Of a DNA stretch of 64,000 bases, positions 27,706 through 62,348 are shown piece by piece. Location: contig CM034546.1 of the NCBI GenBank assembly GCA_020055645.1, forward strand, positions 6,696,001 to 6,760,000, given 5' to 3'. How positions within the stretch are numbered: the first letter of the stretch is position 1; each line of letters opens with the position of its first letter. Under the pieces are notes generated by a model that had not been told where the DNA came from, did no database searches, and was given only the letters and a program-made list of their open reading frames with translations. The DNA comes from Tomocerus qinae. Lineage: Eukaryota > Arthropoda > Collembola > Entomobryomorpha > Tomoceridae. The position numbers and the translations under genes were made by a program.

Positions 27706-27791
27706 CTACAACTACAACTTACAACTATGCTGGCACTAGGTGGGTGAAGGGAAGTAGTTTCTGAAATACATTCTATCCGTCTTACAATATT

Positions 27792-27849
27792 GCCCCGGAA
27801 TACACACTAGCTTTATTTATAACAGGACCTGTGTCCTGTGACCGGCTAG
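27792..27849 (+). mobile_element. Helitron-like 3' terminus (copy A)
   Basis: ACAGGACCTGTGTCCTGT forms a hairpin, followed after 6 bases by CTAG (27846-27849) and a host T. That is the canonical Helitron 3' end (hairpin about 10 nt before CTRR, inserted between A and T). The 3' region matches copies B (36085, minus) and C (47577, minus). The 5' end of this copy was not located, so only the conserved 3' part is given. Confidence 0.6.
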
Positions 27850-36084: not shown

Positions 36085-36300
36085 CTAGGCGGTCACAGGA
36101 CCCAGGTCCTGTCATGAATAAAGCTAGTGTGTATTTCGGGGACGATGCGAAGATAGATTTTTAAAATTCCAATTGACGTTTTCTCGGTTTCTCATTTGGT
36201 GGGCAGGAGGTAGAGATTTTACATTTCACTGATAGACAGTAAAAACATTTCCCAAAACTTCGCCTTAGTACGACCTAAGGTAAATACTCGTCACCAAAAT
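36085..36300 (-). mobile_element. Helitron-like 3' region (copy B)
   Basis: Read on the minus strand it ends in a hairpin ACAGGACCTGGGTCCTGT, then GACCGC and CTAG (36088-36085), followed by a host T (complement of A36084). About 200 bp further in match copy C (GGTTTCTCATTTGGTGGG, ACTTCGCCTTAGTACGACCT). The 5' end (TC) was not found, so the true length is unknown. Confidence 0.6.
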
Positions 36301-37160
36301 GGCCATGAAAAATGGTGCCATTTTCTTTGTTTGTGGATACTTCCTACCTGGCTTCTTCGTTACTGTATATTGTATGCTGAGCCAGAGGTATTAGAAATAA
36401 TAATTGGAATTCTATGATGCTGTTTTTACCTCCATAATGTTTATGTTTTATGCAAAAATTTAATCATCGAAATAAGCAATGAGCAACAACTGTAAAATAC
36501 ACTACTGGTTAGCAATACTGTCGGTTTTGATGATGAATGACGATTTTCCTAAAGTTTATAAAATTTAATATCAATACTGCTGGCCTAGTTCAACTTATTG
36601 ATGCTTTTTGCAGTCAAAATTATCAAGCCCGTCCAAACTTTGATTATGCAATTTCATTGCTAAAAATAATGACGTATGTATACATGGCATAAGTAATGAG
36701 AGGGTTCTTGAAACAATAACAAAATCAAAGTAGGAATAATTCTATTAATGCCAAAATTATTTGGTAAGTTTATTGGTGTGTAATTAAATAGGGTACAATT
36801 AAACAAATAAAATTCATTAAATAAACGACAAACAAATATACTTAGCCTAACTAATTGGAAATAAATCAAAGTGATCTTAATTCAAAAATACATGAAATAA
36901 TAATAATAAATAATATCAAATAATAATGAGTTAGTATAAAATAATAATAAGAGTTAATATCAAATAGTATTAAGAATAAGAATTAATTTCAATTAACCAT
37001 AAGAAGAATTAATATCAAATAGTAATAAGACTAACAATTAATAATAACTAACAATAAGAATTAATAACAAATAATAATAAGACTACTAATTAGTATCAAT
37101 TATAATAGTAAGAATTAATATCAATTACAAATAATAAGAATTAATATCATAACATGCCTT
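36301..37160. other. Gene-free spacer ending in an AAT/TTAATATCAA-rich tract
   Basis: About 36880-37160 is a degenerate low-complexity run of AATAATAA, AAGAATTAATATCAA and related words leading into the 36-bp satellite. No gene. Confidence 0.5.
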
Positions 37161-37167
37161 ATTGGCA

Positions 37168-37698
37168 ATGGACCAACAAACGGTCACGTCTGCCCTATTG
37201 ACAATGGACCAACAAATGGTCAAGTCTGCCTTATCGGCAATGGGCCAGCAAATGGGCAAGTCTGCCTTATCGGCAATGGGCCAGCAAATGGGCAAGTCTG
37301 CCTTATTGGCAGTGGACCAACAAACGGTCACGTCTGCCTTATTGACAATGGACCAACAAATGGTCAAGTCTGCCTTATCGGCAATGGGCCAGCAAATGGG
37401 CAAGTCTGCCTTATTGGCAATGGACCAACAAACGGTCACGTCTGCCCTATTGACAATGGACCAACAAATGGTCAAGTCTGCCTTATCGGCAATGGGCCAG
37501 CAAATGGGCAAGTCTGCCTTATCGGCAATGGGCCAGCAAATGGGCAAGTCTGCCTTATTGGCAGTGGACCAACAAACGGTCACGTCTGCCTTATTGACAA
37601 TGGACCAACAAATGGTCAAGTCTGCCTTATCGGCAATGGGCCAGCAAATGGGCAAGTCTGCCTTATTGGCAATGGGCCAGCAAATGGGGAAAGTCTGC
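37168..37698. repeat. 36-bp minisatellite with a 252-bp higher-order repeat
   Basis: About 14.7 units of 36 bp. Three unit types (encoding, if read, MDQQTVTSALLT, MDQQMVKSALSA and MGQQMGKSALSA) follow the order A-B-C-C-A'-B-C, and this seven-unit block is repeated twice (37168-37419 and 37420-37671) before a partial unit. Because 36 is a multiple of three, a frame on each strand stays open over the whole array (37162-37734 plus, 37125-37730 minus). The composition, the bidirectional openness and the lack of flanking exons argue for a satellite rather than a gene, though a repeat protein cannot be excluded. Confidence 0.85.
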
Positions 37699-38231
37699 CT
37701 TATTTGGCAAAGAGCCGTTAAAACGGTCAAATAAATATTTTATGATAGTAATAATGTGAAGAATTTTTAGTTAGCTTTCAAAAATAAGTTGTTAAGTGTA
37801 TCAACAAACTCTATCATATTATAAATAGAATCCCAAAATTCAATGAGTCCATTAAACTTTCTTGTCATAATAGCACAACAAAACTTCAATATGCGAGTGA
37901 AAATGAATAAGTGCAAGAAACGATATATTTAATTGAAGGAAGAAGTTTTTACTACCACGCAACAGTGTATTCAAATTTAATAATTTTGTCATACTTTGCC
38001 GTTAAAACTCACAAGCGTGTATGCATAAATTAAGCTAGTTCCATCTGAATGGAATATAGCATCTTTTGCAAATAAACCAAACAGTGGTGTGGTGTTCTTA
38101 CATTTTGAAATTTAATAACCGTACGGCGGCCAAGCAATAACAATCATAACTTAGACCATTCTGTTTTGAAACGTAGTGGCTTGCCCTATTCTCATAAGTA
38201 CATACAAACACACAAACATACGTACATACAA
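37699..38231. other. Gene-free spacer
   Basis: No supported feature. Confidence 0.4.
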
Positions 38232-38382
38232 ATGTTTTTAATAATGTACCCCAAAGTAGTTGACCCGAAGTCCACTATAATCAAAGTGCCTTTGTCAGGT
38301 AACTTCGGAAGGCATCCGACACATGCACGTTGCGTGTAGTGGACATCGGGTGAACTGCTTTGGGGTACATTATTAAAAACAT
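38232..38382. repeat. 151-bp foldback MITE
   Basis: Arms of about 46 bp beginning ATGTTTTTAATAATGTACCC pair across a 60-bp centre with a few mismatches (38232-38277 against 38337-38382). No clear target duplication. Lies downstream of the minus-strand IR. Confidence 0.65.
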
Positions 38383-38668
38383 TAATTATTTACTACGCGT
38401 GCGCCAGTTTATGTTTATACTTAGTCTTGATATAAAAATACATTATTGATATTGATCAATTTGAGATAAAGTTAGTTATGTTTGAGAGCATGTTAACGAG
38501 CCAAGCAATAATTATTAAGACAAACAGCAAAGTAACCCAGCACATTTAATATCATTAAAAATTAATGTACATCTATAATTAAAAAGATATAACTATTGAT
38601 ATTGAAATTAAAGCACTAGGTAGGTAATATCGTATATTGTCTAGTTCGAGGAAGTGCCAATTAGCTGA
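38383..38668. other. 3' flank of the minus-strand IR
   Basis: No supported feature. Confidence 0.4.
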
Positions 38669-45067: not shown

Positions 45068-47576
45068 TTCGTATATAATATTATAAATAACTAAAATGTT
45101 TGGGAAATGAAATATTTAATTTATCAATTATAGATAATTATAACCTCTATTTATTTTATTAGAAAACAAGTTGAACCAAATCGTCCATGTATTCTAGTGG
45201 CTCAGCTCAGTAACCATTGTATCTAAAAACCATGTACAATTATGTATTAAAACCATGTATAACGTTGTAAAAAAATAGGGAATGGTACAAGGCATTCCAC
45301 AAGATATTATGTAATTTGAATTTCTTGCTCTCTTTTCTGCATACAGATATTGCCCTAGTTTATTCAAATTTTTAGATTCTTATACATATGTAAAAGCAAT
45401 TAAAAAAGAATAGAACAAAAAAAATAGAACAAACTATTTTTTATAGTTTTACAAATTATATCTTTTACCACCAAGTTTAAGGTATAGTATTTTATATTTA
45501 ATACCATTGGAAACCTCTTACCACTGGTTAGTGGTAAATAATGGTATTGTTATGTACACTTAAAGTGATGGATTGCACGTGTCACTTACAACATTAAAAC
45601 GTTAATACAACGTACTTGGCTATGCAACGTACCTACCCAATACATGTAAACTTCGTATAAAGCATAAAATAAATTTAATTTACGGCAAAATTTCCAGTAG
45701 TTTTGCCTATAAGACATCAACATTATTTGAGCTACTACTAAGAAAAAAATACATTTGTTTCGCTTGCCTTGCTTTTGGAATATTGGATTTTATCAACGTC
45801 TCCATCTTATTGGAAGTCCTTAATTTAGGTTAGACATTGAAGTATTGGCAGTGGAAAGGATTAGCTTTCTAGTGTGTTTAAGCATTAAGGTTGCGTCTAA
45901 GGCTTTCCATTACGATTCGCAACATCCTCCTACCTCCATTACCACAAGGCCGTACGAATCCAAATTTGAAAATGAAGATTCTTCGACTAATTATCAAGTG
46001 CATAAACCTAGTCCTTAGAATTGTTTTAAAAAATAGCATTGTTTGATTTTTGACAATAAAAAGTTGAGTCATTTTATGCAAATGTTAGTGCATGCAAAAG
46101 ACCCTGTGAGACAGATACATTCAATTTGTAGTCGTTACTAAATGGCGGAAATGAGAAAATTTAGTTCTAGGTTCACTAGATATTTTTCTCTCTTTCTTTT
46201 TGGTATCTTTACAAAATCCCCAAAAGTGATTGGGTCACTTTTGGGGATTTGTCAAATGTCATGAAATGTCAAATCACGATTTTCCGATATAAGATCAGGG
46301 GATTGATATCATTGAGTAGAATTTCACTATTACCAACAGCAAATAGGAAAACCTGAAATGAAAAGTTTTGCGACTGATTTGTGATTGCGCTTGTAGCCTT
46401 GTAGCCCAATTATGTATATAGTGTGTCTATTTATTTAATATATAAAAAAGTATCCTTTCGTTTGACATTGCACAATCAGTGAATATTTTTAGATCCAAGC
46501 AAACATTCATTTACCCTACATTTAGTTTAAGCAAAAATTGTAAGCAAAGAGTATTGAAAGGTCTTATTATTCTGAAGAAATATGCAAACATACTAAGCAC
46601 AATTCCAGGAGTTATAAGCATAAAAATTGCAGACATGAAAGCGTCTTATTTAAGCAGGCTGGATAATATACTGCACGTTAGTTTTATACTGAGTGTAATT
46701 TTAGACTTGCAAACATAACTCCAGTTAAGCTTTTAAGTTAAATGACATTGTTGCGCAAATTTTTTGCGTACCTTACCCTTTAAACTTACAGCTTGTAATA
46801 CGCAAAAATTGTGGCAAACCTTAATTGGCAAATGAAGCTAATTGTTACTGATAAATGATAACTAGCATACCTATCAGTCATTTCCATCCTATTAGTAGGT
46901 ACTATTAACACAAAGAAAGTAAATATATTTAGTTCATATAGCACAACTTCAGATTATTACTTACTGCAGCAATAAAAGTTCTTTTTGGAATGCAGTCTCT
47001 GTCGCAAAGTAATCTTTTAAACACCATTGTAAACATCCGACAGAAAACGAATTTTTATTAATTAATTAGCCCCCATACCAAAAGTAGGAGACAAATTTTT
47101 TGTTCTCTCATTCATTCTAATTTTAAATTATTTTAATTAGACTAACTCGTAACTCTTAGCAATAAGTTGGTATTAAACATGCTTGGCAAGCATCCAGGAA
47201 TTTGGACAGAAGAGATGAAATACAACGTTATCTCAATATAAGACTTTTTCCCATAAAACTGATTTTCAATTTTAGGGAAACAGTTCTATTTTCTCAGATT
47301 TAGGGGGCGCCGAGCCCCACACAACTGTATGTGCTTGCTGTCGATATAGCAATAAAGTAAATAATAAATAATAAGGCATACATGACGCCAGAAACTATTT
47401 TGACAAAACTGAAGATGGAGAGACAGGCAACTACGTGGACATTGTCGAGACATGTCCAAATAAGGTATTTTTGGTATAATAGAGTGGAACGCCACCCGAT
47501 CCACGTCATTATTGTTCTATTTCTGCCATACCAAACATCAAAGCTAAAACTGAAAACCAAGCCATCTATATTTTTA
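45068..47576. other. IR 3' flank, then duplicated non-coding block (copy 1 of 3)
   Basis: No gene. From about 45606 the sequence matches 58020-60365 in order (for example CCAATACATGTAAACTTCG, CAGTAGTTTTGCCTATAA, TATCCTTTCGTTTGACATTG, GACGCCAGAAACTATTTTG), with indels. A third copy starts at about 63650. It is the upstream part of the GR duplication unit. Confidence 0.65.
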
Positions 47577-48989
47577 CTAGGCGGTCACAGGACCCAGGTC
47601 CTGTCGTACATGGGGCTAGTACTTCTACAAAAAATTTTGTAGAGACTGGTTTGTAGTAGGCCAATTACACCAGAATTCAGATGGGTTCAACACTAATATA
47701 CACAGATTTTTTATATTAACTCCGATTGATCTTTCCACGGTTTCTCATTTGGTGGGACGGTAGGTAGAGATTTTACATTATTAGAGACAAAAAGTATTCC
47801 AAAACTTCGCCTTAGTACGACCTAGAGTCAAATTGAAATATGATTGTGGGTACTGATGTTTGATTCGAGGTTTACGGTACTCAAACCATAACCTTTGTAC
47901 ATACTGCCACTAATTTATACAATGGACCATTTTGAGGTCAAGTTAGCCTTAATTGGCAATGTAGTGTCAAGTAGTCAAATAGAAAACTGAATAGTTTACA
48001 TTGTTACGTTTTGGTCCCATAAGAGAGTTTAAACTTTTATATTATGGGACTTTTCGAGCTGACCCCATTACTATTGAGTTTCATTCCTTTCTTAGCGACC
48101 TGCTGTTTCTATTTTGGGAACAATTAAACCGTATGTAAAGACAAATTTTAATTCAATGTAGGTTGACCCTAAATGTGAATCATGGAATATTCGAGCACAT
48201 AAGTGAACATAACGTAAATTAGAACTATATTTTATTCATTGAGCTGCCAAATTTCTTCTCCTGAGGTAGGGAAATAGCCGGACAGGTTAACTTTTGAGGT
48301 TTCGGCTTGAACAAAAATTGAGTCATATTTCGGCAATAAATTTTGGAAATTAGTGTTATTTTGTTAGCAACCAACTATGATTACCGTCCTCCATTGAAAA
48401 AATGAGACAAAAATGTTGTACATATTGTCGTGTAAAAAGTGAAGTATTTTCAGACAATATTCCACAGTTCTAATTTTGCTGTTTCCAACAAATATCTAGA
48501 ACATGTTTTGCTTCTTTATTTTTCAATTAAACTATTGGTTGTGAAATTGAGAAATATCATAATTCAATGTAAATGGATCATTTATAAAATTTCCCGCACA
48601 TGAAATAATGAGATCCTTGAGAGCATTCACCACGGAAAGTTGGAAAAATTTGCATACAGAATGCATGCAATACTTCTGTCATGAAATATTTGAATATTAG
48701 AAATAATGTAATACTTCAACATTGTTACATTCAACGCACATGAACCAGTCTACATTTATCATGTAGAGTGATGATAGTTGTGTATTGTGTCAGTCAATAC
48801 TGGGCAAAACAACTGACTCTAACGTGCGCAAAATTTTGTATCTTTCAAAATCAAATTTTGATACCTAGACGTTTCGAAATTATGTGATGCAGTAGCACAT
48901 AAATCTCTTGATACAAACATACAAACCTACACGGGTACACATACGGAATTATTTACGCGCATGTCCCACTGTGCTCTTATAAGAAGAGA
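47577..48989 (-). mobile_element. Non-autonomous Helitron-like element, 1413 bp (copy C)
   Basis: On the minus strand it starts TCTCTTCTTATAAGAGC (48989 downwards) and ends with hairpin ACAGGACCTGGGTCCTGT, GACCGC and CTAG (47580-47577). It is inserted between A47576 and T48990 without duplication. The paralogous locus reads TATTTTTA|TACGG at 60365/60366 and is empty, so both ends are fixed to the base. No Rep or helicase reading frame is present. The 3' 250 bp is shared with copy B. The insertion lies about 20 bp upstream of the GR TATA box. Confidence 0.85.
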
Positions 48990-49008
48990 TACGGATTACT
49001 TGACCAAA

Positions 49009-49015
49009 TATAAAA
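49009..49015 (+). promoter_or_regulatory. TATA box of GR copy 1
   Basis: TATAAAA in the context TACTTGACCAAATATAAAA, 98 bp before the ATG. The same context and spacing occur before GR copy 2 (60385), and the stretch is better conserved than the DNA around it. A TCATCT initiator-like word lies about 33 bp downstream. Confidence 0.5.
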
Positions 49016-49106
49016 GTGTGAACAGTAAATGTAATTTCTCTTCATCTAAGGGGGACAATTCGCTCTTAAAATTTTGGTAATTGAACAAGAACACTGAGTT
49101 GCTGGA

Positions 49107-50618
49107 ATGGCAAATTCTTTGGAGCAAAAAGTCATCCTCATTTACTCACAATTGGCCTCCAAATTTTTCAAAGTTGCTGGGTTTTTGAAATTAACTCCTT
49201 TTGAATGGGATAGTGCAACATTTTCTCTCCGCTTATGTCGGAGTAACTCACAATATTTCATATGGTTTCAGGCATATTTTTACTTGGGGCTAACTTTTTT
49301 ATACACCATTGCTAGACTCTTTCAAGAACTAATGTCCCCTAGTGATACATTTCAGGCGCACAAAATTGCATCTTACATTCAATACTCATCCATGGGCTTT
49401 TTAGTTATTGTGATGGACTCTGTAATGTTCTTCCGAGGAAAGGAACTGGTGGTATTATTCAAAATGTACTCTCAATTTCTCAAAACATTTCAAGGTACTA
49501 TTTTAAATTTTATAATTGAGTTACGTTTATTTGATGTGTCTGATATGTTTGTTTGATAAACCACGGAATTGTTGTTTTAAATACCTTACTCTTAGAATAC
49601 TGATTTATAAATATAATTAATAATTTTTAAAATACCTTAAACTAAAAATACCTATGCACGTATAAAGTGTAGCGATGCACATGTTAGTTGCAGTTGAAGA
49701 CAATTTTCTGAGAATTCCAAATTTTTTTAAATTTTAGTATATGATAGTGAGGAACTAACTGTGCTTCACGACAAAATCCCAATTTCACTTAACCTTTTCT
49801 ATTCTAATCTAATAGGTTCCATTGCCAATAAAGAAATGTATTGGAAAAAGCAGTTGAAGGTGGCCAAAGTAACTAGAGTGTTTATGTTCACTTTTTCCGG
49901 ATTTTTCATTATCTGCATTTTTGTAACTTCTGCTCATATCATCATTGGAGGTGACTTGGACCCCATTCACAGATTCATGATTGAGAATTTTCCTGAAGAA
50001 CTAAGCCATTTATTACCATTTCAAATTTTTGTTGCCATTTTGTTTATGTATTTTATATTTTCCTTAATTTCTGTTAGTTTAGTTTTCTTTTTGCTATTTT
50101 TCTACATGTACTTCATTCAGGTAAACTTACATCTGCAAGAGATTTGCCAGAATAATCAAACATCCAAAAAGAAGCAAAGAGAAGCATATTTGGTTTACAA
50201 CACAATGGTTATTATTAGCCGCTATTTTAATGAAAATTTCTCATCGGCATGGGGTTTAATATTAGTAGCCTTTAATATCTACCATATGCTGGTCACATTC
50301 ACTTGTATCAAAATGTTCGACATCATTCCATTGGCAGGATTTATCTACCTACCATTGGCGTGTTGTTTCATGTTCATAATAGAAAAGATAATATTGGAGG
50401 AAATAGGACTGTCCTCTTAACAATCAAACGCCGTTCTTCAGACCTGGAGAAAACAACTACATGGAAAAGAAATCCAAAAGACATTAAAATCTCTTCGGGG
50501 CTTTGGAGCAGAGTTTCACAATTGTTTCGTAATCAAAGGATCTACTACAGTCACATTCATGCAGCTCATGGTCAATAATAGTATTAATCTAATTCTATCT
50601 GTTAAGATTAATCGATAG
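49107..50618 (+). pseudogene. Gustatory-type receptor (GR), copy 1, with premature stop
   Basis: Exon 1 49107-49494 and exon 2 from 49816 (acceptor CTAATAG, preceded by CTTAAC and a pyrimidine run) join in phase 1. Membrane-spanning stretches typical of an inverted seven-helix receptor follow each other (for example YFIWFQAYFYLGLTFLYTIA, FQIFVAILFMYFIFSLISVS, AGFIYLPLACCFMFIIEKI). At 50418 TAA replaces the Glu codon found in copy 2 (SS-stop against CSEQ). The stop cuts off about 66 residues, including LKSLRGFGAEFHNCF and the seventh helix; the frame would otherwise run to 50618. If expressed, 330 residues are made. GRs are ligand-gated chemosensory channels; loss of helix 7 should be inactivating. 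A Helitron sits just upstream. Confidence 0.7.
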
Positions 50619-53132: not shown

Positions 53133-53284
53133 TATTCCAAGGACGCATTGAGGTATGCAAATAGCAAAAAATTTGAGTTCCGCGCGATTGTTTTCAATTT
53201 TTAGGGTATTTTATTCCCATTTTCGTCAAAAAATACCAAAATTTTTCGCGCTACGCGCGAATATATACGTTTAAGTTATCTATA

Positions 53285-53639
53285 TCAAATGTTAGCCCCC
53301 CTCCGAAACCCAATCCTGTAACATTCTTGACGTACCCAAACCAAGGCATGAAAAATCAAATGTTAGCCCCCCTCCAAAACCCAATCCTGTAACATTCTTG
53401 ACGTACCCAAACCAAGGCATGAAAAATCAAATGTTAGCCCCCCTCCAAAACCCAATCCTGTAACATTCTTGACGTACCCAAACCAAGGCATGAAAAATCA
53501 AATGTTAGCCCCCCTCCAAAACCCAATCCTGTAACATTCTTGACGTACCCAAACCAAGGCATGAAAAATCAAATGTTAGCCCCCCTCCAAAACCCAATCC
53601 TGTAACATTCTTGACGTACCCAAACCAAGGCATGAAAAA
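53285..53639. repeat. 71-bp tandem repeat, five near-identical copies
   Basis: Five units of 71 bp start at 53285, 53356, 53427, 53498 and 53569; only the first differs (one G for A seen). Each unit runs from TCAAATGTTAGCCCCCCTCC to ACCCAAACCAAGGCATGAAA. The last 14 bases of each unit, CAAGGCATGAAAAA, are the end of the hAT element that begins in the fifth unit at 53626. Confidence 0.9.
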
Positions 53640-57596: not shown

Positions 57597-60365
57597 TTAA
57601 TTTTTTGTGAAATAATTGCTTGGCATTTGTTGAGTACATATACATATACAAAGTTTTTAAGTAATGAAATCTGGGTATTTTCTGTGCACGTTGGACATTA
57701 TTGCCGTGTAACAGTTTTGATCGAGCTAGAAAGTAGGGCGAAAAATTACAAATTAGAAAATGTAAGCAAAATTCAAGAAGTTTACTTTCTACATCACAAT
57801 AATTATAATTTTATTAGACAAGTTAAAGTTTATAGAGAAATGGTTTCTACATTATCCAGTATAATAATATGTACTTTTTTACAGCTGAGGGTTTATATTA
57901 CTAAGATCAATCTATGAATTCTTCAAAATTAAGTGAATTTATATAAAGCAACACTTTTAAGGCATATAACATTATGTACTTGGTTGGTGAAGCACGTTTA
58001 TTGAACAAAAGTTTTACCCGTTTGTAGTAGCAGGTCCTACCCAATACATGTAAACTTAGCTAAAGCATAAAATAAATTTAATCTAAGGCAAAATTCCCAG
58101 TAGTTTTGCCTATAAAACATCAACATTATTTGAACTACTACTAAGAAATAATTAACTTTTGTTTCGCTTGCTTTGGTTTAGAAATATTGGATTTTATCAA
58201 CGTCTCCAATTCTCCACTCCATTGTAATGGAGGTACATAAATTAGGTTAGGCAATGAAATATTGGCCGTGGAATGAATTAGTTTTCTACTGTGTTTAAGC
58301 ATTAAATTCTAGTGTATCTCATATAAGGTTAAGTTCTCTAATTTCCTATAAGACCAGTATACTATACTACAATTAATATTGTAAAAAGTGAACTCATTAA
58401 AGCTCTTTTTTCATTTCTTAAGTACCTATCCATAATTATTAGTTTTGTTTTATAATACAAATTTTGTTCCTGTGTCTTTAGGCTACAGTATTTGAAGCAT
58501 TCGGAAAATACTAATATAACACATATTGTATAACTTTTAACGTCTATTAAGCCTTAGCTGTAAATTAATCCATAATAATAATAATGGGCAAAAAGTATCC
58601 TTTAGTTTGACATTGCACAATCAGTGAATGTTTTTACGTCCAATAAAAAAACATTCATATACCCTACATTTAGTTTAAGCAAACAGTATTGAAAGGTCTT
58701 ATTATTCTGAAGAAATATGCAAACATACTAAGCACAATTCCAGGAGTTATAAGCATAAAAATTGCAGACATGAAAGCGTCTTATTTAAGCAGGCTGGATA
58801 ATATACTGCACGTTAGTTTTATACTGAGTGTAATTTTAGACTTGCAAAAATAACTCCAGTAAGCTTTTAAGTTAAATGGCATTGTTGCGCAAATTTTTTG
58901 CCTAGCTTACCCTATAAAGCAACGTCGTTGTAGTACGAAACAAGTGTGGCAAACCTTAATTGACAAATGAAACTTAGTGTTACTGATAACTAGCATACCT
59001 AGTTCATATAGCACAACTTCAGATTAATTCTTACCGTAATTAAAAGTTCTTTTTAGGATGTAGTCCCTGTCACAAAGTTATCTTTTAAAGACCATCTTAA
59101 ACAATCCGACAGACAATTTTAATTAATTAATTAGCCACCACCAAAAGTAGGAAACAAATGTTTTTCTCTCATTCATTCTAATTTTAAATTACCTTAGTTA
59201 GACTAACTCTTAGCAATAGTTGGTTTTGAATAATATGCTTGTCAAGCATGCAGTAATTTGGTCAGGGGTGGTGCAATCTCGAAATAATACTTTTTAGCAT
59301 AAAAATAACTTTCAATTTTGGGGAAACAGTTATATTTTTTCAGATTTAGGAGGCGCCTAGCCCCACGCAACTGAATGTACTTGCTGCCTGCTACCGATAT
59401 AGCAATAAAGTAAACGAGCCGTCCATAAACCCTGAAATGTAACAACATTGTGGAAACATTCACGCATAGGAATCAAGCTTTTTTATTATTTATGTAGTTG
59501 CGATGATAAGTTAATTTTCTTGTCCACACTGTCCATTTAGACGAATTTATTCGAAAATGTTTGCATTTAATAGTAAATACTCGAATTTATTCGAAGGTCC
59601 TCGAATTTATTCAAAAATTCTAGAATTAGGCATTGAGATTGAGATTAAGTCAGACTTTCATTTCGTTCATATGATGTGAATAAATTCAACAGAAAAGCTT
59701 AGTACCTACATTGAAAATAATGAATTAGATACTCTGATAACAATTGATTAATAATATAATAATAATAATTAAAAACTCAATTAATAAGGAAATTTTCGTA
59801 TTGTTATATTATAGTTTATGGCAAATAAAACAATTGGTAATTGGTATAGTGTATCCAATCCATTTCCCTATAAATAAAATCAGGCCTACGGTAGTGCATT
59901 AATAGTACGTCGAGTCTTAAGTTATACCGCCACCGGGTCCAACAGCCAGTTTCACTTGGCTTACAGGTTCAGCTTATTCTCAGCGCAGCCTTTTGCTCCT
60001 GCTCAGCAAAATCATCGATAGCCAATACAACACACCAAGCAAACGTATTTCTTAGGCGGCGACACACGACACACACACACGACAAACCTTCTTATGGGGT
60101 TAGAGATAGTTAATAAAAAGTCATACATGACGCCAGAAACTATTTTGGCAAAACTGAATCAAATAAGTGGAAATGCAGACAACTAGCAACTGAATGACAA
60201 CAACGGACATTGTCGAGACATGTCTAAATGTCTACTTTGTATTTTCCAATAAATAAAATTGTAGTATAAAAGAGTGAAACGTCAAGCAATCCACGTCATT
60301 ATTGTTCTATTTCTGCAATACCAAACATCAAGCTACAACTAAAAACCAAGCCATCTATATTTTTA
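57597..60365. other. Duplicated non-coding block (copy 2 of 3)
   Basis: From about 58020 matches 45606-47576 in order, with indels; about 59410-60115 is extra here. No gene. Contains a CGAATTTATTCGAA-type short repeat (about 59537-59625) and an ACACACGAC microsatellite (about 60062-60085). The end joins directly to the GR promoter, where copy 1 has the Helitron. Confidence 0.6.
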
Positions 60366-60384
60366 TACGGAGTACTTGACCAAA

Positions 60385-60391
60385 TATAAAA
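60385..60391 (+). promoter_or_regulatory. TATA box of GR copy 2
   Basis: TATAAAA in TACTTGACCAAATATAAAA, 95 bp before the ATG; same spacing and context as GR copy 1. Confidence 0.5.
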
Positions 60392-60479
60392 ATGTGAACA
60401 GTAAACGTAATTTGTCTTCTCCTTAGGGAAACCATCTCTTAGAAATTTGGTGATTGAATAAGAACATTGATTTGCTGGA

Positions 60480-62348
60480 ATGGAAAATTCTTTGGAGCAA
60501 AAAGTCATCCTCGTTTACTCACAATTGGCCTCCAATTTTTTCAAAGTTGCTGTGTTTTTGAAATTAACTCCTTTTGAATGGGATAGTGCAACATTTTCTC
60601 TCCGCTTATGTCGGAGTAATTCCCAATTTTTTATATGGTTTGAGTGTTATTTTTTCTTAAGCCTAGGTTTTCTGTACACCATTGCTAGACTACTTCAAGA
60701 ACTACTGTCCCCTAGTGATACATTTCAGGCGCATAAAATTGCATTTTACATTCAATATTCAACCCTTGGCTGTTTAGTTGTCGTGATGAACTCTGTAATG
60801 TTCTTTCGTGGAAAGAAACTGGTAGCATTATTTAAAATGTGCATTAAATTTCTCAAAAACAATCAAGGTAACACATTTTAAATTTTATATCAAACTATCA
60901 ACTATTGGCTATGAACGAACCTAGTTTGTTTGTTGTGTCTGATAAGTTTCTTTGATGAACGACGAAATTGTTGTTTTAAATACCTTACTCTTGGAATGCT
61001 GATTTATAAATATAATTAATTAATTAATAAGTCTTAAAACTGAAACTGAAAATACCTATGCACGTATGAAGTAAAGGAACATTTCAATGCCAGTTGCAGT
61101 TGAAGGCCATTTTCTGAGCATTCCAAAATTGTTTACAATTTAGTATAGACAGATATTATTTGATATCGGAAAGTCAAAAAATTTGTGGCGCAGTGGATAA
61201 TAAAGGAAATTCATTTTTGCTTTTGCTAAACAAAACTTTTGTTTTTGGTTATTTAATGATCTCTTTCTTTTCATTTCTGCAGAATTTTCGAAAATAATAT
61301 TTTTCTTGGAAATTTAATTTTTTTAAATTTTATTTATTTCTTAAAACCTTTTCTAGAGTATCAAGTAACATAATTTTTTAAAAAGGTTTCATCCTAATCA
61401 GTTGATTGGTTCTCTTGCTAGAAATTATTCAGATTTTACTCTTTGTGGATCCCCTACCCACATGTTTTTTTCTTTCCGATATCAACTAATATCTGTCTAA
61501 ATAATATGATAGTGAGAATCTAACTACTTGACGACAAAATTTTATTTAAGTTCTTCTATTATAATCTAATAGGTTCCATGGCCAATAGAGAAATGTATTG
61601 GAAAAAGCAGTTGAAGGTGGCCAAAATCCTAAGGGTGCTTATGTATATTTTTGCCGGAATTTGCATCATAGGCATTTTCGTGGCTTCTGCTCATATCATC
61701 ATTGGAGGAGACTTGGACCCCATTCACAGATTCACGATTGAAAATTTTCCAGAAGAACTAAGCCATTTATTACCATTTCAAATTTTTGTTGCCATTTTGG
61801 TAATGTATTTTATGTTTTCCTTAATTTCTGTTAGTACAGTATTCTGTTCGCTATTTTTCTATATGTACATTATTCAGGTAAACTTACATCTGCAAGAGAT
61901 TTGTCAGAATAATCAAACATCCAAAAAGAAGCAAAGAGAAGCATATTTGGTTTATAACTCAATGGTTATTATTAGCCGCTATTTTAAGGAAAATTTCTCA
62001 TCAGCATTGGGTTTAGTATTAGTAGCCCTTAATATCTACCACATGCTAGTCACATTCACTTGTGTCAAAATGTTCAAAATCATTCCATTGGCTGGATATA
62101 TCTACCTACCATTGGCCTGTTGTTTCATGTTCATGGGAGAAAAGATAGTTGTAGAAGAAATAGGACAGTGCTCTGAACAATCAAACGCCGTTCTTCAGAC
62201 CTGGAGAAAACAACTACATGGAAAAGAAATCCAAAAGACATTAAAATCTCTTCGGGCTTTTGGAGCAGAATTTCACAATTGTTTCGTAATCAAGGGATCT
62301 ACAACAGTCACATTCATCCAGCTTATGGTCAATATAGTATTAATCTAA
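60480..62348 (+). CDS. Gustatory-type receptor (GR), copy 2
   Basis: Exon 1 60480-60867 and exon 2 61573-62348 join in phase 1 (G|GT) and give 387 residues. N-terminal MENSLEQKVILVYSQLASNF, then hydrophobic stretches matching seven helices, and the C-terminal part LKSLRAFGAEFHNCFVIKGS, which resembles the conserved last loop of arthropod GRs. In known GRs this part leads into helix 7. Here a one-base deletion relative to copy 1 (near 62332) ends the protein at QLMVNIVLI, about nine residues short, so helix 7 is clipped. The 705-bp intron holds a MITE (61146-61499). Predicted plasma-membrane chemoreceptor, probably still functional but with a shortened end. Ligand unknown. Confidence 0.75.
61146..61499. 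mobile_element. 354-bp MITE in the GR copy 2 intron
   Basis: Ends TAGACAGATATTATTTGATA... pair over 28 bp with one mismatch (61146-61173, 61472-61499). GR copy 1 reads straight through the same place (TTTTAGTATATGATAG at 49732), so it is an empty paralogous site. Superfamily unclear; a TA-type target is possible. Non-coding. Confidence 0.8.

Follow-up and report, generated by a model that had tools for sequence, protein, structure and literature searches.

A 1413-bp segment of the analysed window, a stretch of 64,000 nucleotides from the genome of the collembolan Tomocerus qinae, is almost certainly a non-autonomous Helitron which entered the first of two duplicated gene blocks once the duplication had taken place, copied there by a related element's Rep/helicase transposase; we hold this reading with high confidence, together with the nicking and composite-forming mechanism proposed below. 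The element itself is ordinary in kind and belongs to a large family in the genome, and this family shows unusually clearly which sites Helitrons choose and how one element can arise from two. The features of the window are collected in table 1.

Ends, empty site and family of the window element

On the plus strand the boundaries of the element read A47576/CTAG...AGAGA48989/T48990 (a slash marks the junction here and below), and on the minus strand, in the orientation of the element, 5'-TCTCTTCTTATAAGAG...CAGGACCTGGGTCCTGTGACCGCCTAG-3', with the 5' TC at 48989-48988. The first-pass annotation had described an insert of 1413 bp running from 5'-TC to CTAG-3' on the minus strand, with a hairpin 6 nt before CTAG, and the sequence is exactly so. 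Because A47576 and A48989 are the same letter, alignment cannot separate 47577-48989 from 47576-48988, and the boundary was chosen by the TC...CTAG convention. The fold of the 3' hairpin is weak evidence by itself (z -1.95; 6 of 200 shuffled sequences fold equally well), its weight coming from conservation across the family. The element contains no long reading frame, its longest stop-to-stop stretch being 55 codons, and compared with a long copy of the family (L031) it is shorter at two places, near 47698-47700 (by about 95 bp) and near 48095-48109 (by about 130 bp), in both cases probably through deletion.

Table 1. Positions of the features discussed, in window coordinates (a dot means that no strand applies).
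Feature	Position	Strand	Evidence or remark
Non-autonomous Helitron, short form, 1413 bp	47577..48989	-	paralogous empty site; family copies with the same ends
3' terminal CTAG	47577..47580	-	CTAG in 25/31 aligned copies, T next in 25/25
3' subterminal hairpin of 7 pairs with a 4-nt loop, 6 nt before CTAG	47587..47604	-	folding; 452 genome termini
Right terminal sequence, about 124 bp	47577..47700	-	86% identity to the Rep/helicase-bearing locus L048
5' subterminal small hairpin CTCTT-N5-AAGAG, within the left terminal sequence	48974..48988	-	
Host base adjoining CTAG (minus-strand T)	47576	.	minus-strand 3' flank TAAAAATATAG
Host base adjoining 5' TC (minus-strand A)	48990	.	
Paralogous empty site, A/T	60365..60366	.	
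Second, more diverged outer-type Helitron	36085..38430	-	5'-TCAAGACTAAGTATAAAC...; same 3' hairpin and CTAG; no short element inside
Third, degenerate copy of the same 3' end, ending GGCTAG/T	27769..27849	+	

The annotation had also placed the insertion between A and T, with nothing at the corresponding position of the duplicated block, and the alignment of the two blocks indeed yields an exact empty site. With blastn, 47361-47576 aligns to 60106-60365 and 48989-49741 to 60365-61147; the flanks of the element, once joined, are the empty paralog, both reading ...CCGTA/TAAAAATA..., and no base is gained or lost at the junction. The label of the blocks as gustatory-receptor ('GR') blocks is not supported: a Pfam scan of six open reading frames found no receptor family at E<=0.1, its single match below the cut-off being to an unrelated family. 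The paralogous frames of the duplicated blocks resemble, by eye, multi-pass membrane proteins.

A search of the genome (334 Mb in 115 contigs) with the whole element gave 107 matches from the 40 candidates scored out of 1620 at first look, and many of the matches listed break off at position 1 or 1413 of the element. The 27-bp 3' terminus, comprising the hairpin and CTAG, occurs at 237+215 = 452 genome sites with at most two mismatches, and the reversed pattern at none, which rules out chance; it has no exact match in a viral-contig and a genome-contig collection, neither of animal genomes. We fetched 39 copies and inspected their ends. Together with the window copy, 31 of these have an aligned 3' end, which is CTAG in 25, CTAT in four, CTTA in one and truncated in one, and the base next to CTAG is always T. 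At the other end, the 15 short-form copies counted are all preceded by A and begin with TC in 14 cases, the exception (L016) having TT; this count leaves out L015, whose 5' flank is common with that of L013, L022, which adjoins outer-Helitron sequence, and L042, whose eroded 5' end is preceded by G. The expectation that copies elsewhere would share the ends of the window element thus held for most of them, with 6 of the 31 3' ends departing from CTAG. Copies with both ends range from 1.35 to several kb and combine one conserved 3' end with several different 5' ends.

Empty sites were sought for 19 copies by joining 60 bp of host flank from either side and searching the genome with the result. 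Sites spanning the junction exist elsewhere for five of them, the short forms L013, L017 and L020 and the long forms L031 and L043; for the other 14 none was found among the best 40 scored candidates. Eleven empty sites were fetched and aligned, of which nine (for L013, L017 and L031) are gapless at or next to the junction, and the single sites of L020 and L043 show an A/T join with small gaps within some 6-10 bases of it. The target is A/T at all six loci with empty sites, the window included, and because it always is, a one-base target duplication is formally indistinguishable from none.

The relation of the insertion to the block duplication can be judged from divergences. The blocks differ by a distance of 0.16 in the right flank of the element (749 columns) and 0.27 in the left flank (176 columns), and by only 0.116 and 0.106 in two further stretches. 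In a tree of 38 family rows, inferred from the first 900 bases, the window copy sits in an eight-row short-form clade (98/96, from a bootstrap that had not settled) on a branch of its own of only 0.037. Since this is less than half the divergence of the immediate flanks, the Helitron most likely landed in one copy of the block after the duplication, as had been proposed from the empty site; half of 0.16-0.27 is well above the branch length, although half of 0.106 is only slightly above it. The opposite history, in which the element predates the duplication and was precisely deleted from the second block, appears very improbable to us. A single empty paralog cannot fix the direction of the change, and putative excisions have been proposed for a rice Helitron family (PMC4683698); yet a base-exact deletion would be needed, whereas the rice cases described in that report show incomplete excision, deletions in the flanks or filler sequence, and the short branch of the window copy and the A/T empty sites of five other family loci stand against it as well. 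Still more improbable, to the point of deserving next to no weight, is a cut-and-paste DNA element of another kind that duplicates one base of its target. Such a duplication would fit the alignment equally well, the first letter of the element and that of its 3' flank both being T, but a terminal inverted repeat is lacking (no exact inverted match between the first and the last 60 bp exceeds 5 bases, a length that 455 of 500 shuffled sequences also attain), the hairpin and CTAG occur at one end only, and elsewhere in the genome a Rep/PIF1 frame is followed by this same 3' end. A corresponding test for subterminal inverted repeats in the 120-bp ends gave a longest exact match of 8 bases, which 68 of 500 shuffles reach.

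A Rep/helicase-bearing relative and the likeness to known Helitrons

The reading as an insertion copied by a related element's transposase is consistent with a candidate for that element. A profile search of the genome with Pfam Helitron_like_N gave 96 matches, and among the termini listed, which cover contig C1 up to 57.5 Mb, one (locus L048) is found 3.3 kb downstream of such a match and on its strand, and for a second match there is a terminus 9.3 kb downstream. The frame at L048 is 1595 aa long and contains the domains Helitron_like_N (E 7.7e-60), PIF1 (2.2e-57) and Pif1_2B, with HAH at residues 692-694, the YxxxY motif YIFKY at 856-860 and a Walker A motif. The last 124 bp of the locus are 86% identical to the window copy and the last 130 bp 89% identical to L031, and the locus carries a related tandem repeat. 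The terminus shown to be common to L048 and the window family is the 3' terminus only. A putative left end of L048, a base at which five relatives begin to match, was rejected, as these relatives share 100 bp more upstream; the base is therefore where L048 departs from them and not the end of the family. On domain content and the matching 3' end, L048 is likely to be the autonomous partner of the short element. The earlier expectation of autonomous relatives with Rep/helicase has thereby found a candidate locus, and the identification of the window element as a non-autonomous Helitron is sustained by its exact ends, the empty site, the 452 termini and this Rep/helicase locus with a matching 3' end. 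Residues 38-102 of the L048 frame, ahead of the Rep domain, show a weak match to Pfam STPR (E 9.7e-5, below the curated cut-off).

Canonical Helitrons begin with 5'-TC and end with CTRR-3', have a hairpin near the 3' end and no terminal inverted repeats, insert between A and T without target duplication, and encode a Rep protein (of the HUH type, with two tyrosines) joined to a PIF1-like helicase that drives rolling-circle transposition through a circular intermediate. Of these features the family shows the TC/CTRR ends, the hairpin, A/T insertion without duplication, no terminal inverted repeats and a relative with Rep/PIF1. The preference for T-rich sites that marks Helentrons and DINE-1 is not seen in the family, where the six empty sites are A/T and A precedes 15 of 15 short-form copies. 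Helraiser/Helibat1 from bats is described as alike in the arrangement TC...hairpin...CTAG, in A/T insertion without duplication and in its two-tyrosine Rep nuclease and Pif1-like helicase (PMC4778049, PMC5876387). The insect family Hel1 is alike in being short and non-autonomous, with TC/CTRR ends, A/T sites and exemplars differing by acquired stretches, whereas the three Csup exemplars quoted for it, compared here by description, measure 162-257 bp against 1.35 to several kb in our family (PMC6544945). DINE-1/HINE elements, which are non-autonomous Helentrons, are likewise non-autonomous rolling-circle elements, some with tandem repeats, but are described as preferring T-rich sites and having subterminal inverted repeats (PMC4067079); the window family has A/T sites and a CTAG end.

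A one-sided signal at the target site

The host sequence beyond the 3' end of the copies carries a phased signal. Counting the 3' flanks in which ATA starts at +7 or +8 gives 22 of 25 in a first set (the CTAG-ended flanks) and 45 of 52 in a second (55 further flanks fetched, minus three repeats). The same count at offsets 14-35 of these flanks gives a mean background of 8.0% and 8.6% and a maximum of 16% and 17%, respectively. At +7 alone ATA is found in 14/25 and 29/52 flanks, against a single-offset background of 4.3% in the second set. The pattern T(N5)ATA, corresponding to +7, was first spotted by eye, and the choice of +7 or +8 was made after both sets had been inspected. Closer to the site the ATA background is higher (e.g. 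16/52 at +4 or +5); AT-richness accounts for part of the signal, and the peak at +7/+8 goes beyond it. On the 5' side of the 15 short-form copies nothing stands out apart from the A at -1.

The insertion profile of Helraiser shows AT-richness that is strongest on the 3' flank (PMC4778049); compared by description, the difference is that AT-richness is what is described there, whereas ATA is phased at +7/+8 here. Among the open-licence papers listed, none was on such a phased signal, and we make no claim that it is unpublished. The HUH nuclease would, we infer, nick the target at A/T, guided by the single-stranded DNA that follows the nick on its 3' side. A signal of this kind, phased and one-sided and taken from natural insertions, is something that structural models of the Helitron nuclease would have to account for. 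The left ends of the elements contain a similar motif, with ATAA at +10 in the short form, at +14 in the long form and at +5 and +9 in the repeat around L013, in the three left ends compared, so that one shared way of reading left end and target is possible.

Long forms, apparent composites and nested copies

The 5' end could be aligned in 38 copies, and 20 of these have 36-bp minisatellite units ahead of the left end of the short form; in the best-kept of these long forms another left end lies in front of the minisatellite, so that they look like composites of two Helitrons. The far boundary was inspected in 12 long forms: nine begin TCATGACTAAAG, each with A before it, and three are without that start. 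The second Helitron of the window has a minisatellite at 37155-37710 (15.4 units of 36 bp, a 144-bp period also being detected), and the junction in the long forms, CCA/TCTCTTC, falls at the A/T of the repeat unit CCA/TTGCCRATA, which itself matches the target signal.

A composite could arise if, as we propose, a transposition event that has begun at a left end runs on until it meets a hairpin plus CTAG and ends at the first one: a Helitron nested in another would then be carried off behind the left end of the outer one as a new composite. Composite transposition of neighbouring Helitrons has been named as a route of capture (PMC4067079). The converse order, in which the long form (two left ends and the minisatellite between them) gave rise to the window's short form by a start at the inner left end, is a less probable but still sizeable alternative. 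The tree of the 38 rows is star-like, with long branches for L032, L041 and L044; the long forms stand among its unresolved basal rows and the clade of the window copy consists entirely of short forms, as that order would have it. Against a single origin of the long forms, the free tree implies six changes between the long and short labels, and just one change was seen in 0/200 bootstrap trees; a single long clade is not rejected by the AU test (p-AU 0.122). Against the long form coming first, the second Helitron of the window is an outer element that has the minisatellite without the short element, and the junction within the repeat unit looks like an insertion, even though the original nest, i.e. 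the end of a short element joined to the rest of a repeat unit, was not found genome-wide at up to three mismatches.

The origin of long forms by fusion of a short element with an outer one, which we prefer, has an apparent parallel at two other loci. At L013 a short form lies 187 bp inside another repeat, the 5' end of which is TC; of 39 non-self rows (L015 and four tandem copies included) 19 begin exactly there and 29 within 4 bases. The junction-spanning empty sites of L013 are this outer repeat without the insert, and L013 is thus a nested, donor-like locus. At L015, 42 kb away, the identical 187 bp are followed by an element differing in 3 of 1617 columns, and the whole begins after A and ends CTAG/T; L015 is apparently the retransposed product. 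No clean empty site was found for L015: the search mostly returned two separate repeats to the left and right, overlapping by about 8 bases at the junction, and one gapped match of 81% spanning it. The outer repeat at L013 is preceded not by A but by G, abutting a CTAG; from its TC start and its mobilisation, rather than from a Rep gene, we infer that it is a Helitron. This apparent donor-product pair is nearly free of mutations, which makes the rule 'outer left end to first hairpin' directly testable.

A more far-reaching proposal, which we put forward tentatively and regard as rather less than an even bet, is that targets and left ends are recognised by the transposase through a common single-stranded signal, in which ATA(A) follows a T at a short distance downstream. 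As the 36-bp minisatellite repeats this signal (the 15.4-unit array of the window matches ATN5ATA 13 times), the elements might attract each other's insertions; each nest would be a ready-made composite with an outer left end and an inner right end, and new families might be born by a self-targeting repeat.

Several further loci touch on nesting. L049 (around G000:C1:11748321-11748346) was considered as the founding nest, having the sole CTAG/TTGCC junction at up to three mismatches, with an inner 3' CTAG that runs directly into TTGCCAATA of the repeat unit. The inner element of L049, however, is a different Helitron, with an apparent remnant of a Rep-protein N-terminus by eye, and we keep the locus as another insertion into an outer Helitron's array of 36-bp repeats. 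The 5' flank of L022 resembles, by eye, the 5' part of the outer Helitron near 38000 in the window, a likeness suggestive of a further nest elsewhere in the outer element. At L061 (G000:C1:8386313-8386417) a Helitron CTAG abuts the long-form-type 5' end TCATGACTAAAG with zero bases between; one Helitron 5' end abutting the 3' end of another has been described from Myotis (PMC4778049, PMC5876387).

Two minor observations concern the surroundings of the family. Contig C1 carries 33 of the 40 scored copies (the window copy included; three are close neighbours), against its share of 42% in the assembly (binomial p 3e-7), and might be a sex chromosome or one of low recombination. Within the window, 53284-53639 is a tandem repeat of five nearly identical 71-bp copies (99% matches).
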